A stretch of 64,000 nt of DNA, from the NCBI RefSeq assembly GCF_005938745.2, contig NZ_VCBX02000001.1, positions 186,001 to 250,000 on the forward strand, written 5' to 3'. This document shows positions 31,564 through 38,064 of the stretch, one piece after another. Both the position numbers and the translations under genes were made by a program. The first letter of the stretch is position 1. Every line of letters begins with the position of its first letter. Below the pieces are notes generated by a model. The model searched no databases and was not told the origin of the DNA. It saw only the letters and a program-made list of their open reading frames with translations. The DNA is from Rhodococcus sp. KBS0724. GTDB taxonomy: Bacteria > Actinomycetota > Actinomycetes > Mycobacteriales > Mycobacteriaceae.

Positions 31564-32298
31564 GTGACCGCCGAACCCGTGTACACGGCAGTCGAGACCA
31601 CCGCGCGTGTTCTCTGCTGTCTACAGGGTCTGGCGGTCACCCGAACCGGCACCGAGAACGTTCCGCATACCGGCGGAGCGGTGATCGCGATCAACCACAC
31701 GAGCTACCTGGACTTCATCCACGCGGCCCTTGCCGTGCGCGAGTCGAAGCGGAAGCTTCGGGTGATGGCCAAAACGGAATTGGCGAACAACAAGGTTCTC
31801 GCGTTCCTCATGCGGGGGTGTGGCGTCATCGAAGTGGATCGCTCGGCGGGTGCATCGGCCTTCCAGGCAGGGGTCGACGCATTGCGCCGTGGCGAATTGG
31901 TTGGCGTGTATCCCGAGGCGACAATCAGTCGGAGTTTCGAGATCAAGGAATTCAAGTCCGGTGCTGCCCGGATGGCCATCGAAGCGAAGGCGCCGATCAT
32001 TCCGGTGATTGTCTGGGGTGCACAGCGGGTGGTGACAAAGGGTGGTCCGAAGAATCTGGGCCGCAACCACTTTCCCATTTCCGTGGAGGTTGGTACGCCA
32101 ATTGATCCGGTAGAGCCGGCAGACGCACTCACCGAGATTCTGCGGATTGAGATGGACGCCATCTTGCGTCACGCTCAGGATGGGTTTGCCCATGAGCCGG
32201 GTGCGTACTGGGTCCCGCGTCGGCTCGGTGGAGGAGCGCCCACTCCGGAGGAAGCTGCCGCGATGGATGCAGCGGAGCGGGCGAAGCGGGCTGGATGA
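31564..32298 (+). CDS. Second PlsC-type acyltransferase
   Basis: 244 residues from a GTG, 4 bp after the first acyltransferase. It has NHTSYLDF (HX4D), VDRSAGASAFQAG, YPEATISRSFEIKEFKSG and IIPVIVWGAQR. The stretch around the acceptor motif is almost identical at DNA level to the first gene, including a 29-base identical run, showing gene duplication or conversion. It ends the conserved block: the next orthologous neighbour (Cof-type hydrolase) is found only after the IS/defence island. Confidence 0.92.
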   Translation: MTAEPVYTAVETTARVLCCLQGLAVTRTGTENVPHTGGAVIAINHTSYLDFIHAALAVRESKRKLRVMAKTELANNKVLAFLMRGCGVIEVDRSAGASAFQAGVDALRRGELVGVYPEATISRSFEIKEFKSGAARMAIEAKAPIIPVIVWGAQRVVTKGGPKNLGRNHFPISVEVGTPIDPVEPADALTEILRIEMDAILRHAQDGFAHEPGAYWVPRRLGGGAPTPEEAAAMDAAERAKRAG

Positions 32299-32461
32299 TT
32301 CAAACCGCGATTGAATTGTCACGCAGACATCTTTGATGTCACTTGGCGCGGCTACTCCGGATCAGATCCGACTGCAAATCGATCGTCAGCGCGAGTGCGC
32401 CGATGAACATCAAGGTCTCCGGAAACTCCGGTGCGATTCAGGGGTCAATATTGAAGTGGGC

Positions 32462-33773
32462 GGTTTCTATCGGTCGTCGCAACACTTCTCCCTAGAATCT
32501 GGAGTTTGTGTTGTCGTCATCTCGTCGTGTGAAGAAGGGGCCGGGGCGTCGTCCGCAGTCGGCCAAGCGTCAGCGGTTCATGGAGCTCCGCGGCCGCGGG
32601 TGGAGCATTCTCGCGGCTGCCCGTGAGGTCGGTGTATCCCGAACCACCGGAAACAACTGGTCGCGCGGCTACAAGACCTACCGCAACGGTGCGGCCGTGG
32701 GGTTCGTACCTGCTTTGGAGCGGCTGGCGGTACGTGAGATCAGTGCCCGGTTTCTGTCCCAAGACGAACGCATCGAGATCGCCGATCTACGCCGTGCGGG
32801 ACTGAGTATCCGAGCGATCGCAGGCCGGTTGGGGCGGTCGCCCTCGACGATCTCGCGCGAACTTCGCCGGAACGCAGTCACGGGCAACGATTATCGGCCG
32901 TTCGAGGCCCACCGACGTGCCACGGCCCGACGAGCCCGGCGGCATCGGCGACGTCTGGAGATCACACCAGAATTACAGCGGGTCGTGGCGGAACTGTTGT
33001 CGCAGCGGTGGAGTCCGCAGCAGATCAGCCGGCATCTGCGGGCGCGATTCCCGGACGAGCCGCGGATGTGGTTGTGCCACGAGAGCATCTATCGGGCCAT
33101 CTACCAGCCCGGATCGCTTTTACTGCGGCCCTCTCCGCTGGCCCCGCAGCGGCGGTCACCGCTGCGCACCGGCCGTGATCACCGGCGTGCTCAGCGGCGC
33201 GGAGAGCTACGCCGCCCGCGATTCGAGCAGCCGATGCTCACCATTCATCAACGGCCATTCCCTCCCGAGGACCGTTCGCAAGCTGGGCACTGGGAAGGTG
33301 ACTTAATCACCGGCGCCCACAACCAATCCGCGATCGGCACGCTCGTCGAGCGCCAGACACGGATGGTTCGGTTGCTGCATCTTCCCTTCCGCGACGGCGA
33401 TTCTCTCCATGCGGCGCTGACCGCGCGGATGCGCGATCTGCCGGCGGCGTTACTGCGGTCGATCACCTGGGATCAGGGCTCCGAAATGGCCCGTCACACT
33501 ACGATCGCGCGATCGCTGGGCGCACCGGTCTACTTCTGCGATTCACGTTCCCCGTGGCAGCGCGGTTCGAACGAGAACGCCAACGGACTGTTGCGTGACT
33601 ACTTCCCGAAGGGAACAGACCTCGCCATCCACTCGCCGGAGCATCTGCTGGCCGTTGAGAACGAACTCAACAGCCGTCCCAGGGTCGTCCTCCAAGACCG
33701 TTGTCCGACAGAGTTGTTCACGGCTCTACTAGAGTCACAGAATCCGTCGGTGTTGCGACGTTGACTAGAACCC
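32462..33773 (+). mobile_element. IS30-family insertion sequence
   Basis: About 1.31 kb. Imperfect terminal inverted repeats were found by eye: 32462-32485 (starting GGTTTCTA, ending CGTCGCAACAC) against the reverse complement of 33750-33773 (GGGTTCTA...CGTCGCAACAC), 18 of 24 positions matching. The right repeat contains the transposase stop codon. No clear target-site duplication is visible in the few bases on either side, so exact ends are approximate. Confidence 0.75.
32508..33764 (+). CDS. IS30-family transposase
   Basis: 418 residues from a GTG. An N-terminal helix-turn-helix (GWSILAAAREVGVSRTTGNNW) quoted in part as AAREVGVSRTTGNNW, a second HTH (LSIRAIAGRLGRSPSTISRE) and the rve/DDE catalytic core with Asp265 (HWEGDLI), Asp322 (TWDQGSEM) and Glu356 (NENANGLLRDYFPKG) are all present, so the enzyme looks intact and the element may be active. 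Catalyses cut-and-copy transposition of the element. It interrupts the conserved order between the acyltransferase and HAD hydrolase genes, just downstream of a defence gene pair. Confidence 0.95.
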   Translation: MLSSSRRVKKGPGRRPQSAKRQRFMELRGRGWSILAAAREVGVSRTTGNNWSRGYKTYRNGAAVGFVPALERLAVREISARFLSQDERIEIADLRRAGLSIRAIAGRLGRSPSTISRELRRNAVTGNDYRPFEAHRRATARRARRHRRRLEITPELQRVVAELLSQRWSPQQISRHLRARFPDEPRMWLCHESIYRAIYQPGSLLLRPSPLAPQRRSPLRTGRDHRRAQRRGELRRPRFEQPMLTIHQRPFPPEDRSQAGHWEGDLITGAHNQSAIGTLVERQTRMVRLLHLPFRDGDSLHAALTARMRDLPAALLRSITWDQGSEMARHTTIARSLGAPVYFCDSRSPWQRGSNENANGLLRDYFPKGTDLAIHSPEHLLAVENELNSRPRVVLQDRCPTELFTALLESQNPSVLRR

Positions 33774-33985
33774 AAGGTGCCGTACTTTGATCAGTTTTCA
33801 CCTGCCGTCGACAGGGGTTCGACACCGTCCTCTGAAAAGTTCTGCTGTGATGGTCGCCGTAGCGCGAAGCACGGCCCTGCCGATGCAGCCCAGATCGCGG
33901 GACACTCAGCGTCTCATGCCAATCCGCGAGGGTTGTCCGCCCTCGGCATTGGACGTGTCGCCGTACGTGGATTCCTCCCAATCCT

Positions 33986-35071
33986 TCATGGAACCCAGAC
34001 CGGGTAGGGGCTCTGTCCAGGGGTATCGAGGATGATCCCGACGCTTTGCTCCGCGCGAGTCACCGCCACGTAGAAGTTGGCTGCTTGCTGATGTTTGAGG
34101 ACGGTCCCTTTCTGGAGGAACTGAGTGATCGGGCCGGTCGGGTAGATCAGCACGCGTTCGCGTCCGAGCCCCTTGGCTTTGCCGAAGTTCATGAATCCCA
34201 GGTGCTCGAACGACTTGCCTGTCCCGGCAGAGTGCCGCAACGGGAGCGGTGAGTACCTCTCCATGTAGACATCGACATGCTCAGATTTGATGAGAAAAAT
34301 TCCGTCATGCCCGGTCGCCCGCTCGTTCATCGAGATTGTGGGCTCGAATCCCCATTCTTCTTCGAACATGGAATCGGCCAGCGATGCGATTGCCGACGAG
34401 CACCGCCATGTCTGGCATCGTTGGTCTATTTTTAGTCGCCTGGATTTTTCATCGGCTTTGAACTTTTTCCAGATCCCCATGTACATGAACTTCTTGTTCT
34501 TGCGTTCACGTTCGTTCGTTGCCAAGATGGCTTGTCTGATATCTCCCACCATGTTGACCGGGATACTCGACTTCATCAGCAGGTTCAGTATCTCCAGGTC
34601 GTAACCGCACAGGTCTTGAACTTCGTCGATGAAGATCCGGTCGTAGATTCGTGCAAGCCTGCGGATACCTGCGCCAGCTGATGCCTCTTCAACACGGACC
34701 GCCAATTGTGGGAGGTGGACCTTTCTCGCTTCTCCGTGCTCGTTGAAGTATCGTGGCCAGTCCTCGACTTTGGAGTACTGCTGCGGCGGACTGTTGAAGT
34801 CGAATCCTTTGCTGCGTGCCCCTTCGTAGAGAAAGGGCAGGAAGGGGCGAACGAAGTTGCCTAGGAGGAACGAAAACCATCCACTGACTTCGATATTGGG
34901 ATGGTCGCCGGCAAATCGTGCCAGACGATCGCGTAACTCAGTCTGGTTAACGGAGGTATAAGTGAGGATCAAGATGCGCTCAGCCCGATCCGCGGCCGCG
35001 CACTCGTCCACGATTCCCTGGGTCTTACGCGATCCAGCCACCGCGAGGGTGAGGTGATTATTCGCTGCCAT
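33986..35071 (-). CDS. Small UvrD-like helicase, GajB-like
   Basis: 361 residues from the ATG at 35071. Superfamily 1 helicase motifs in order: a deviant Walker A AVAGSRKTQ (residues 10-18; Arg replaces the usual Gly), motif Ia TYTSVNQTELRDR, Walker B FIDEVQDL (147-154), motif III MVGDIRQAI, motif V-like FGKAKGLGRERVLI and motif VI YVAVTRAEQS. Only about 360 residues are present against about 490 for typical GajB, so the 1B/2B subdomains are reduced or missing, but the core reaches motif VI and is not obviously truncated. It overlaps the OLD-family gene by 14 bp. Together they resemble Gabija; the phage-defence role is inferred. Confidence 0.8.
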   Translation of the reverse strand: MAANNHLTLAVAGSRKTQGIVDECAAADRAERILILTYTSVNQTELRDRLARFAGDHPNIEVSGWFSFLLGNFVRPFLPFLYEGARSKGFDFNSPPQQYSKVEDWPRYFNEHGEARKVHLPQLAVRVEEASAGAGIRRLARIYDRIFIDEVQDLCGYDLEILNLLMKSSIPVNMVGDIRQAILATNERERKNKKFMYMGIWKKFKADEKSRRLKIDQRCQTWRCSSAIASLADSMFEEEWGFEPTISMNERATGHDGIFLIKSEHVDVYMERYSPLPLRHSAGTGKSFEHLGFMNFGKAKGLGRERVLIYPTGPITQFLQKGTVLKHQQAANFYVAVTRAEQSVGIILDTPGQSPYPVWVP

Positions 35072-36671
35072 GAATGAACTCGATCGCCTCCGTGAAGTAC
35101 TTTGGCGGTGCCAGGACATCATCGCTCTCAGCGATTCGCAGCGCAGCCTCAGTCTTGTTGTTGGTCATCCAGGTCTCCAGGTTCGCCCTGTCCGTCACAC
35201 CCAGCACCTTTCGCATCCGACTTTCGTCTGGGTTCGCAGTTAGCACTTGGGGCTCGAGCGTATGGCCCAGTGATACATCGCCGATGAACACGCGCCGCGA
35301 AACTTCGTCGGTGAGATAGCTGATTTCGTCGAGGAGTTCGGCAGGGTCACTGCCGTCGTTGTCTCGGAGTGCGGCGCAGCGCTTGTCGAGAGCTTTGGCA
35401 AGTTCGAGACAGCGTTTGAGTGCGAGGCCTCGCATGCTGATGACGTCTACGCCGTCTTCAATCGGCCGCTGGCCACGGGCGTCCAGGTAGAATTTCTCGA
35501 ACAGTATTTCGTCCGAAGGGCCCTCCACCAGTACAAAGCGATCGGCGAGCACCATCCGGAGAGTGTCGTACCCCGGGAGTTTCTTGTAGTAGGCCACGGT
35601 ATCGTCGGGGAGCTCGTCCAACGAAATAGCTCGACCGTCGGAGATGAACATGAGCCCGTTCAAACCGAGGCGATTCAGCACAAACGAACTGTGGGTGGTG
35701 ACGAACAGTTGCTGACCGTCACTGGCGAGCGTTTCAATTCGACGCAGGAGCGCGTTCAGGCTGGTATGCGATAGATGATTCTCCGGCTCCTCGATCATCA
35801 CTACGTGCGCCGAGCTAGCTTGATTTCCCATCGCGAGCGCGATTTTGATTGCTGCTTGTTGCCCTTGGCCGGCCATCCCGAAGGGGAGCTCAGCAACGTG
35901 CGGGACGACGCTGGTGTCCCAGGAACCTCGTGCGGACTGGTCCATCGCCAGAGAAAGGCGCTTGTCGCCAAGCGCACCCTCGAGCTGCGAGATCTTGTCA
36001 TTTACTTCTTGCAGATGTTCGACCGTCATAGTTTCCTTGACGGAGCGGAAGGCGAGGGAAACGGCAGCTTTCTGCTGTGTCTCTAAGTGGTCGCTGAGGA
36101 TTTGTCGCAGATGGAAATCGACCCCGTTGCTTGACCGAATCGTCCGGGAATCGATGATTGCAGTGGTCAGTTCCTTCGGGCGCGTAGTGAGCACGACGTC
36201 ACCGAAAGAGCGCCAATCCACCATGTAGTACTCAACAGGCAGTATCGAACTGTCGGACTTGAGATGAGCCTCAGTCTCCATGGAATACTCCGGATTTGGC
36301 GCTACTCGAAGGCAGACGCCCGCGCACTCCCGTGTGGGCACCTCAGAGTTGTTCGCCCCGAACAACTTACGTTGGAAATCATCTCGATCACACAGAAAGA
36401 CCTCGATGGTGATCTCCGGTGGCGCAACAGGTTTACCTTCTTCTCGAGCGCGGAAGAACTCGATGACATCTTGTTGGTTGAACCAGAAGGGGTTCAGTTC
36501 CTCTGCAGCAGTTCGACCGTTGACGCGGCCGGTCAGTGCTAGACCGATGGCCTCCAGCAGGGTCGATTTCCCGGACTCGTTCTCACCTACAAGAATGTTG
36601 AAGCGAGGGTGTGGTGCGAACGTGAATTCGCGGAACTTGCGGTATCCGCTGATGCGAATCTTTTCGATCAC
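35058..36671 (-). CDS. OLD-family ATPase/TOPRIM nuclease, GajA-like
   Basis: 537 residues. N-terminal ABC-type ATPase: Walker A GENESGKST (29-37), a signature-like MAGQGQQA (about 266-273), Walker B VVMIEEPENHL with Glu294/295, and the H-loop TTHSSF (His327). C-terminal TOPRIM: FVLVEGPSDEILFEKFY (Glu383), RDNDGSD (about 436-442), TLEPQVL and the late NKTEAAL motif typical of class 2 OLD/GajA. Such proteins nick or cut DNA. Upstream and cotranscribed with the UvrD-like gene (14-bp overlap), the gene order of Gabija gajA-gajB. Base composition is visibly lower in GC than the flanking core genes, suggesting transfer. Confidence 0.88.
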   Translation of the reverse strand: MIEKIRISGYRKFREFTFAPHPRFNILVGENESGKSTLLEAIGLALTGRVNGRTAAEELNPFWFNQQDVIEFFRAREEGKPVAPPEITIEVFLCDRDDFQRKLFGANNSEVPTRECAGVCLRVAPNPEYSMETEAHLKSDSSILPVEYYMVDWRSFGDVVLTTRPKELTTAIIDSRTIRSSNGVDFHLRQILSDHLETQQKAAVSLAFRSVKETMTVEHLQEVNDKISQLEGALGDKRLSLAMDQSARGSWDTSVVPHVAELPFGMAGQGQQAAIKIALAMGNQASSAHVVMIEEPENHLSHTSLNALLRRIETLASDGQQLFVTTHSSFVLNRLGLNGLMFISDGRAISLDELPDDTVAYYKKLPGYDTLRMVLADRFVLVEGPSDEILFEKFYLDARGQRPIEDGVDVISMRGLALKRCLELAKALDKRCAALRDNDGSDPAELLDEISYLTDEVSRRVFIGDVSLGHTLEPQVLTANPDESRMRKVLGVTDRANLETWMTNNKTEAALRIAESDDVLAPPKYFTEAIEFIHGSE

Positions 36672-37224
36672 GACGCCAGATCCCTATCGGATTCGATGGG
36701 ATGTCCGTAATTGCGGACTGATTCGACTTGGGGGTGAAACGAGATGACTTGGAGCGTGGCCATGCTGCCGTTATCTCCTCTTCACACCGAGGTGTGTTCG
36801 CAGGTTTATTTACAAGCTCGCGTTGAACTTAGCGTTGCCCTCCGACACGACCGGCTGGGATCGGCGGGCGGGCTGTCGGTGGACCTGCAGCTAGCGAAAT
36901 TTCAGTATCCGCGCGCAGTGATTCTCGAAGAATCACGGAACGGAGACCGTGAGTCACTGGAAAACTAGCTCTGCTCATCAAATGTCGAGCTAAACGTGCC
37001 GAGCCTTGCGGATTCGAAGACGGGCCGTCGACAAACCATCGGTTTTCGACACCCGGACAGTCGATGCAATCGTGCACGTCGATTCAGTCGGCAACTCGTG
37101 TCGAAAATCTATGTCGGATTACCGCGTTAATAACCATTTCCGACAGATTCGATCAAAAATCGTCGGAGTGTCCGATGAGGAGGCGCTGAGCGAGACCGTC
37201 GTACCTCACAGGCACAATGGCGGG
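36672..37224. other. Intergenic region beside the defence genes (553 bp)
   Basis: Divergent spacer between the OLD-family gene and the HAD hydrolase. It contains a perfect 8-bp hairpin GTGATTCT-CGA-AGAATCAC at 36918-36936. Small open frames (for example 36744-36968) have no ribosome-binding site or recognisable product. No tRNA or attachment site was recognised, so how the island arrived is not shown. Confidence 0.6.
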
Positions 37225-38064
37225 GTGAGCCCAGAGCGTCCGACCAGCCCAGCCCGCCCAACTCTTGTCGCGACAGATGTCGACGGCACGTTGATCAACG
37301 AGGATGAGTTGGTCAGTGCTCGCACCCGCGAAGTGATTCATGCCGTCGTGGAATCGGGAACACCGTTTCTGCTGGCAACCGGTCGTCCGCCGCGCTGGAT
37401 TTCACCGGTCGTCGAAAGCCTGGGATACGCACCTTTGGCGGTCTGCGCTAACGGCGCAGTTGTCTACGACAGTTACGCAGACCGCGTGCTCAGCGCCGCA
37501 ACTCTGTCGGTGGAGGCGCTCATCGAACTTTCGGGGCTGGCGCTCAGCGTGCTTCCCGGTGCCGGCCTGGCAGCCGAACGAGTGGGGGAGAGCGCCCACG
37601 ACGCGGCTACCCCACAATTTGTCAGCTCCCCGGACTACGAACATGCGTGGCTCAACCCCGACAACACGGAGATGTCCGAGGACGATGTCCTGGCGGTGCC
37701 CGCCGTGAAACTGCTGATCCGTCGGCCGGGAATGACAAGCACCGCAATGTACGACGCCCTCGCCCCGCACGTCGGATCGCTGGCAGACATGACGTACTCC
37801 ACGGAGAACGGGCTGATCGAACTCTCGGCGCCGGGCATCACGAAGGCGTCGGGCCTCGTGGCCGCGGCGAAGCAGTTCGGGTTCGACTTGTCCGGATTGG
37901 TGGCGTTCGGCGATATGCCCAACGACATTCCGATGCTCGCGATGGCGGATCTGGGCGTCGCGATGGGCAACGCTCACCCCGAGGCGAAGGCAGCAGCCGA
38001 CGAAGTTACCGAGACCAATTCGCAGCATGGGGTCGCAAAAGTCCTCGAGCGCTGGTGGTCGTAA
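37225..38064 (+). CDS. Cof-type HAD hydrolase (Rv3813c-type)
   Basis: 279 residues from a GTG (VSPERPTSP). HAD phosphatase motif I is ATDVDGTLI (nucleophile Asp), motif II is in LLATGRPPRW, a C2-type cap occupies the middle, motif III is KASGL and motif IV is FGDMPNDIPML. Dephosphorylates sugar phosphates or similar small molecules; the substrate is not predictable. The frame stays open upstream to 37006 but without similarity. Its last codons form the left arm of a terminator hairpin. Confidence 0.92.
   Translation: MSPERPTSPARPTLVATDVDGTLINEDELVSARTREVIHAVVESGTPFLLATGRPPRWISPVVESLGYAPLAVCANGAVVYDSYADRVLSAATLSVEALIELSGLALSVLPGAGLAAERVGESAHDAATPQFVSSPDYEHAWLNPDNTEMSEDDVLAVPAVKLLIRRPGMTSTAMYDALAPHVGSLADMTYSTENGLIELSAPGITKASGLVAAAKQFGFDLSGLVAFGDMPNDIPMLAMADLGVAMGNAHPEAKAAADEVTETNSQHGVAKVLERWWS

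Follow-up and report, generated by a model that had tools for sequence, protein, structure and literature searches.

What are an OLD-family nuclease gene and a UvrD-like helicase gene doing side by side in Rhodococcus sp. KBS0724? Both lie in a stretch of 64,000 nucleotides (assembly GCF_005938745.2, contig NZ_VCBX02000001.1, positions 186,001 to 250,000 of the forward strand), hereafter the window, whose positions are counted from its first letter. This study suggests that the pair, gajA and gajB, is very likely a compact Gabija-type system of two genes, gained by horizontal transfer and directed against phages, working by the GajA/GajB mechanism proposed below. Beyond the initial annotation, which had been made from the letters alone, the analysis found a compact build without the 2B subdomain, a shorter TOPRIM insert, an IS30 element in the same insertion and a non-canonical P-loop in GajB.

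Identification of the gene pair

The gajA gene (35058..36671, minus strand) begins with GTG and encodes an OLD-family protein of 537 residues, assigned from PADLOC and Pfam profiles, an AlphaFold2 model and alignments. According to the profiles and the predicted structure, it carries an ABC ATPase fused to an OLD-type TOPRIM nuclease domain, as Gabija requires. The gajB gene (33986..35071, minus strand) encodes a compact UvrD-like superfamily 1 (SF1) motor of 361 residues. As listed, its open reading frame (ORF) runs from 33986 to 35122 on the minus strand, and the ORF finder favours the ATG at 35122, which adds 17 residues upstream of the ATG at 35071. Position 2 of the PADLOC GajB profile falls on residue 21 of the long form, the fourth residue of the short one. 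Because the profile leaves the extra 17 residues uncovered, translation probably begins at the ATG at 35071. With this start, the overlap of 14 bp claimed earlier holds (35058..35071, minus strand, from the ORF coordinates), and translational coupling across it is presumed.

The sequence motifs on which the initial annotation had relied were all found again, with GENESGKST, EEPENHL, VEGPSDE, DNDGSD and NKTEAAL in the translation of the 537-residue ORF and DEVQDL and VTRAEQS in that of ORF 33986-35122. Its naming of a Gabija-like pair, OLD-like GajA followed by UvrD-like GajB, was borne out by the PADLOC profile search: GajA matches PDLC00098 at E 2.1e-195 over residues 1-533, and GajB matches PDLC00140 at E 8.3e-118, both near full length and far above chance level. 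Above the Pfam cut-offs, GajA contains AAA_15, AAA_21 and OLD-like_TOPRIM, and GajB a UvrD-helicase domain. A profile assignment to unrelated DNA-repair families had been set as the opposite outcome; instead, the NCBIfam RecF, UvrD and AddA models remain far below their cut-offs (uvrD 14.4 bits against 1144.45; recF 42.9 against 172). Among the matches listed, no NCBIfam model reaches its cut-off for either protein, which leaves that library silent, not in favour.

GajA and its active site

The TOPRIM glutamate and DxD of GajA are intact as E383 (codon 35523-35525), D437 and D439 (codons 35355-35363), and K506 (codon 35154-35156) accompanies them, all on the minus strand. These four residues are invariant in an alignment of 35 sequences. 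Among 80 sequences, the window included, the columns of E383, D439 and K506 hold no other residue and 1-2 gaps each. They match the site described for GajA of Bacillus cereus, reported as E379 and D432/D434 (PMC10781630). The AlphaFold2 model of GajA has a predicted local distance difference test (pLDDT) score of 80.6; in the presumed dimerisation insert (about 170-270), the means per ten residues are 47-66.

The TOPRIM stretch between the D and K residues measures 66 residues here and 64-88 in the 78 of 80 compact GajA proteins in which it was measurable. In four plasmid-borne relatives of the B. cereus type it measures 106-117, so that the insert of this GajA is 40-51 residues shorter. Class 2 OLD nucleases carry a helical TOPRIM insert that lengthens the domain by about 50 residues over class 1. 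In three OLD proteins without an annotated UvrD partner the stretch was 39, 85 and 112 residues; because these span 39-112, its length alone is no marker of a class 2 OLD.

GajB: a missing subdomain and an unusual P-loop

The Gabija system of B. cereus VD045 consists of a GajA of 578 residues and a GajB of 494 residues (PDB 8sm3, 8jqb, 8u7i). The pair studied here shares with it the OLD ATPase-TOPRIM protein and UvrD-like partner, the TOPRIM Glu and DxD, the helicase motifs and the 1A/1B half of the motor. It differs in the shorter D-to-K stretch, in a P-loop of GSRKT and in a GajB of 361 residues that lacks 2B. Single-sequence searches matched B. cereus GajA just at E 3.3e-4, and found no match to B. 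cereus GajB at 0.01.

GajB contains the P-loop AGSRKT, DEVQD, GDIRQ, WR (motif IV), KG (motif V) and TRA (motif VI). The arginine of motif IV and the lysine of motif V are 76 residues apart, compared with 197-204 in the four plasmid-borne B. cereus-type relatives, and at the expected position of 2B the predicted structure has a 24-residue coil link (280-303) with one short strand. GajB therefore lacks 2B and departs from the four-subdomain build (1A, 1B, 2A, 2B) of the B. cereus type. Motifs II and III and the arginine of motif IV are invariant across 194 sequences. In B. cereus, binding to GajA is reported for the N-terminal half of GajB (1A/1B) and not for its C-terminal region (CTR, 224-416) (PMC10822852); the part kept in compact GajB thus includes the part that binds GajA there.

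In the P-loop, arginine R15 (codon 35027-35029, minus strand) replaces glycine, and GSRKT departs from the canonical Walker A GxxxxGK[ST]. This form is common. Among 196 aligned GajB sequences, the window included, the position holds 87 Arg, 107 Gly, 1 His and 1 gap; among the best 120 of 2855 GajB relatives (protein search at E 0.001), it holds 80 Arg and 36 Gly, and 4 were unreadable. Two GajB ORFs shorter than 300 residues and four of the 120 listed homologues, shorter than 340, were left out of the alignment. Arg forms also occur in records from Oxalobacteraceae, Acidobacteriaceae, Verrucomicrobia, Chitinophagaceae, Onishia, Stenotrophomonas and Saccharibacteria. With the trait columns removed, a quick tree requires at least 8 changes between Arg and Gly, 4 of them forced by well-supported branches. 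None of the 87 Arg-form sequences varies in the P-loop Lys and Thr, in motifs II and III or in the Arg of motif IV. The motif V Lys and the motif VI Arg are each present in 86; of the two that are missing, one is replaced by another residue and one falls in a gap. Because these other catalytic motifs are conserved, decay of the Arg form is spoken against, and the alignments speak for a working site with an altered loop.

A residue compensating for the P-loop Arg was sought at R218, W222 and W240 of GajB, whose covariation with it is strong in raw counts and falls after tree correction; as just 4 independent pairs lie on supported branches, no significance could be attached to it, and the candidates were set aside. 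A search of literature titles and abstract openings found no account of a GajB that lacks 2B or carries Arg in its P-loop, which is no proof of absence.

A compact clade of paired genes

GajB relatives were collected from the genome_contigs set, and the best 80 of 104 were kept. At 78 of these 80 loci, from many bacterial groups and two archaeal metagenome-assembled genomes (MAGs), a GajA-like ORF shares the strand of the GajB relative. At 77 of the 78 the two frames adjoin or overlap, GajB opening ahead of the final sense codon of gajA or no more than 60 bases beyond it. The loci without GajA are one whose contig begins at the helicase (L058) and one where GajA was searched for and none found at E 1e-5 (L050). 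Gracilibacteria read TGA as a residue. In a Gracilibacteria MAG (L087), the sole exception among the 78, the pair appears only as short fragments in the standard code, probably for this reason.

For the trees, 23 compact forms were used, namely 19 of the 80 loci, the second copy in the genus (G001), the window, a Rhodococcus qingshengii plasmid and an Escherichia coli plasmid. They were compared with four B. cereus-type pairs, two other UvrD-linked pairs and, for GajA only, three OLD proteins without an annotated UvrD partner, one of which came from a record without annotation. The compact forms fall on one side of a branch in both trees (GajA 100/99, GajB 99/99; all of 200 bootstrap trees each), and the inner groups look similar by eye, a comparison made without a formal congruence test. 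The compact clade is thus separate from the B. cereus type in both trees, within a small comparison set. No root was placed for the clade, given the small set, the long branches of several comparison rows and the weak support (73/46) at the forks closest to the root as drawn in the GajA tree.

At the level of models, PADLOC draws no difference: the two best models for each protein are, taken together, PDLC00098, PDLC00102, PDLC00140 and PDLC00148, and the compact clade is already labelled Gabija. The E. coli IncF plasmid NZ_CP054165 (L136) carries a compact pair annotated as AAA ATPase and helicase UvrD (520 and 340 residues), which belongs to the compact clade in both trees and has its best matches among the same four sub-models; its GajA is about 30% identical to that of the window, and the pair stands beside toxin-antitoxin genes. 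The class 1 OLD of Thermus scotoductus (PDB 6p74), 22% identical, is reported to be stand-alone without a helicase partner (PMC10568477). The GajA studied here adjoins such a partner and so is not a single-gene class 1 OLD. In Rhodococcus erythropolis NI86/21, DefenseFinder is reported to find two Gabija pairs (PMC12915292), a likeness at the level of the label.

On the R. qingshengii plasmid NZ_CP077418 (L145), genes for a methyltransferase, a specificity subunit and a DEAD/DEAH helicase-type protein come after the compact pair, an arrangement like that of type I restriction systems.

Insertion site and distribution

That the pair is an insertion, as had been claimed, was corroborated in the genus. 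The earlier claim had set the site against M. tuberculosis, with its adjacent Rv3813c/Rv3814c; here congeneric genomes took that place. The insert measures about 4.9 kb (32293..37182, no strand assigned; boundaries approximate and drawn by eye from 24 congeneric sites and G+C) and reaches from an acyltransferase-family gene (31567..32298, plus strand, start approximate; Pfam Acyltransferase E 4.3e-32), whose final codon and stop are situated at the insertion point, to a HAD-family hydrolase gene (37225..38064, plus strand, start inferred; Pfam Hydrolase_3 E 1.6e-54). The HAD gene is present in 26 of 28 genus genomes, its own included (E 1e-50). Junctions were scored in 24 of the 25 others, one being left out as its contig starts too near, and distances were taken from the end of the acyltransferase protein match to the start of the HAD match. 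The pair is missing from this junction in all 24, and in 22 of them 59-136 bp separate the end of the acyltransferase match from the HAD match. In G012 and G002 (L090, L092), the distance is 914 and 976 bp. The junction gene of G012 encodes a lipoprotein with Ltp repeats (Pfam PF07553), and G002 holds closely similar DNA; in both, a short copy of the end of the acyltransferase gene was seen by eye at the far side of the junction gene. Because these genomes hold the lipoprotein gene instead of the Gabija pair, the junction (32298/37183) has taken up unrelated cargo at least twice and is a small integration hot spot. G+C is 0.546-0.588 in windows from 33500 to 36999, compared with 0.60-0.67 in windows outside the insert. 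Besides the transposase of an IS30-family element (32458..33813, plus strand, ends approximate), no recombinase that could have placed the island was recognised within the insert, and the window contains no tRNA that could serve as an attachment site.

The pair is also far from a core gene at this site. GajA relatives occur in 2 of the 28 genus genomes at E 1e-20, the strain itself included; the second copy (G001 C1:4518926) is 45% identical and lies away from the HAD locus of its genome (C1:2965196). In the family, GajA of this kind occurs in 8 of 401 genomes at E 1e-40, both genus copies included and one with an internal stop. Identity to GajA is 72% on a Corynebacterium plasmid and 48-49% in two Rhodococcus plasmid copies; Brevibacterium and Nesterenkonia genomes reach 58-65%, these being the nearest relatives only within the genome_contigs set, and an Oxalobacteraceae genome copy 50-55% (GajA 55%). 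Since near relatives sit in mixed hosts while the congeneric and Rhodococcus plasmid copies are just 45-49% identical, the distribution speaks for horizontal acquisition. Plasmids carry such genes too: a search of 72,556 plasmid records at E 1e-20 placed GajA relatives on 1,715, chiefly those of Klebsiella (784) and Escherichia (661). Sampled plasmid GajA proteins are about 30% identical, and for many of them the annotation within the matched region names a UvrD helicase. A phage-borne origin was considered and rejected: searched at E 1e-8, 50,697 phage records yielded just 2 with a GajB relative, 24% identical.

The neighbourhoods of compact pairs were scanned over 140 of 351 ORFs within 5 kb of 76 loci; the ORFs were chosen greedily, and some are not genes. 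The 140 neighbour ORFs match 247 PADLOC models at E 1e-20. The 25 models listed of the 247 are mostly restriction-modification subunits and methyltransferases, together with MADS and Druantia-type models, each found in 1-2 of the 140, and phage integrases match 6. At the same threshold, none of the 41 window ORFs outside the insert matches PADLOC. Because this control is one unmatched region of one genome, the neighbourhoods lend weak support to a defence role.

Discussion

Homology, conserved active sites and neighbourhoods suggest that the pair may serve in phage defence. Its kind is most likely that of an ordinary Gabija, and its details are those of a compact variant that has received little study. 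Known Gabija forms a 4:4 complex of GajA and GajB and needs both genes to protect against phage; by analogy, the proteins of this pair would form a complex, possess nuclease and ATPase activity and sense DNA ends. GajA may assemble through its ABC-ATPase and dimerisation part and would cut DNA with the TOPRIM site of E383, D437/D439 and K506. GajB would be an SF1 motor pared down to 1A, 1B and 2A, with no 2B lid, docked on the GajA ATPase through its 1A/1B half, and its ATPase may sense or move on DNA ends or single-stranded DNA, thereby licensing or directing the cleavage of invading DNA by GajA. Gabija of Pseudomonas aeruginosa is reported to keep linear phage DNA from circularising where RecBCD does not hold it (PMC12407980). 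A motor on a GajA tetramer that senses DNA ends or single-stranded DNA is favoured here, as an end-targeting model would fit the PcrA-like core best.

Other readings were weighed against a horizontally acquired Gabija. A DNA-repair or housekeeping OLD/UvrD pair without a defence role is very improbable; although non-defence OLD proteins exist, such as the reported archaeal Cran1 (PMC12796447), the rarity of GajA in the genus and family, a G+C below that of the flanks, plasmid carriage and the low scores of the NCBIfam repair models all speak against it. The pair might also be inactive, with the P-loop Arg marking a dead ATPase or with the system decaying after the arrival of the IS30 element. 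GSRKT in place of GSGKT would agree with such a loss, as would reports that other Gabija systems lose their defence when an ATPase site is mutated (PMC10822852; PMC12407980). This too is improbable, however, for both frames are open, the IS30 element lies outside both genes, Arg occupies 80 of the 116 readable P-loops among the best 120 relatives and recurs in distant phyla, and the residues of motifs II and III and the Arg of motif IV show no variation in the 87 Arg sequences. The transfer itself meets a counterweight in near relatives within Rhodococcus and Gordonia, whose GajB proteins are 68-73% identical among the matches listed (best Rhodococcus 73% over 91% of the length); these soften the kinship argument without removing it.

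It is possible, though doubtful, that the compact OLD-UvrD module has an origin apart from B. cereus Gabija, a reading that overlaps with the preferred one as to defence. The PADLOC Gabija label would then join several OLD and helicase pairings, and the clade would operate in a way of its own; a small OLD nuclease might, for instance, be fed by an active end-directed translocase or helicase. The comparison set is small, however, and the forks placing the root are weak; further PADLOC GajA models match at intermediate score (PDLC00078, 134 bits), and the two-gene order and overlap are the same as in Gabija. A bolder and unlikely proposal is that the compact clade would be a separate OLD-helicase immune system filed by PADLOC under Gabija, with an unlocked minimal SF1 motor that has lost the regulatory 2B lid and an Arg-containing ATP site. 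It would draw on the Arg for Gly before the P-loop Lys in most of the closest relatives and its scattered recurrences in other phyla. A literature search found no description of an Arg-based ATPase or nucleotide-sensing chemistry in SF1 helicases.

Gabija is reported to be common (PMC9090908) and to occur in a Rhodococcus (PMC12915292), and the interest of this pair lies in the missing 2B and the unusual P-loop. The role of B. cereus GajB is disputed among helicase, translocase, nucleotidase and scaffold: one report describes no helicase, DNA-binding, ATPase or translocase activity (PMC10681800), whereas another describes an active ATPase and finds both ATPase sites necessary (PMC10822852). 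A natural GajB that lacks 2B, with a fold closer to PcrA/Rep and a variant P-loop, would allow a direct test of which parts of GajB matter. From the comparison, two or more well-separated architectures seem to share the Gabija label, and results from B. cereus should therefore not be carried over unchecked.

Other features of the insert

The part of the insert upstream of gajA (36672..37182, no strand assigned) wholly contains an ORF of 82 residues (36829-37077), and the promoter of gajA is presumed to lie within this part. Where 1.2 promoter-like sites were expected, a consensus scan gave 4, but the stretch directly upstream of gajA contained none of them, and the promoter and terminator scans were uninformative. 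No Rfam match was obtained in the insert at gathering thresholds.

The IS30-family element encodes a transposase at 32508-33764 (NCBIfam NF033563, E 4.5e-81). Two stretches of it match plasmids of R. erythropolis and R. qingshengii at 92-93%. Because two further copies on contig C2 of the same genome are 100% identical, the element probably moved recently. To its left, 36 bp (32405-32440) are 92-94% identical to two places on contig C2 and are possibly the remnant of another mobile element.

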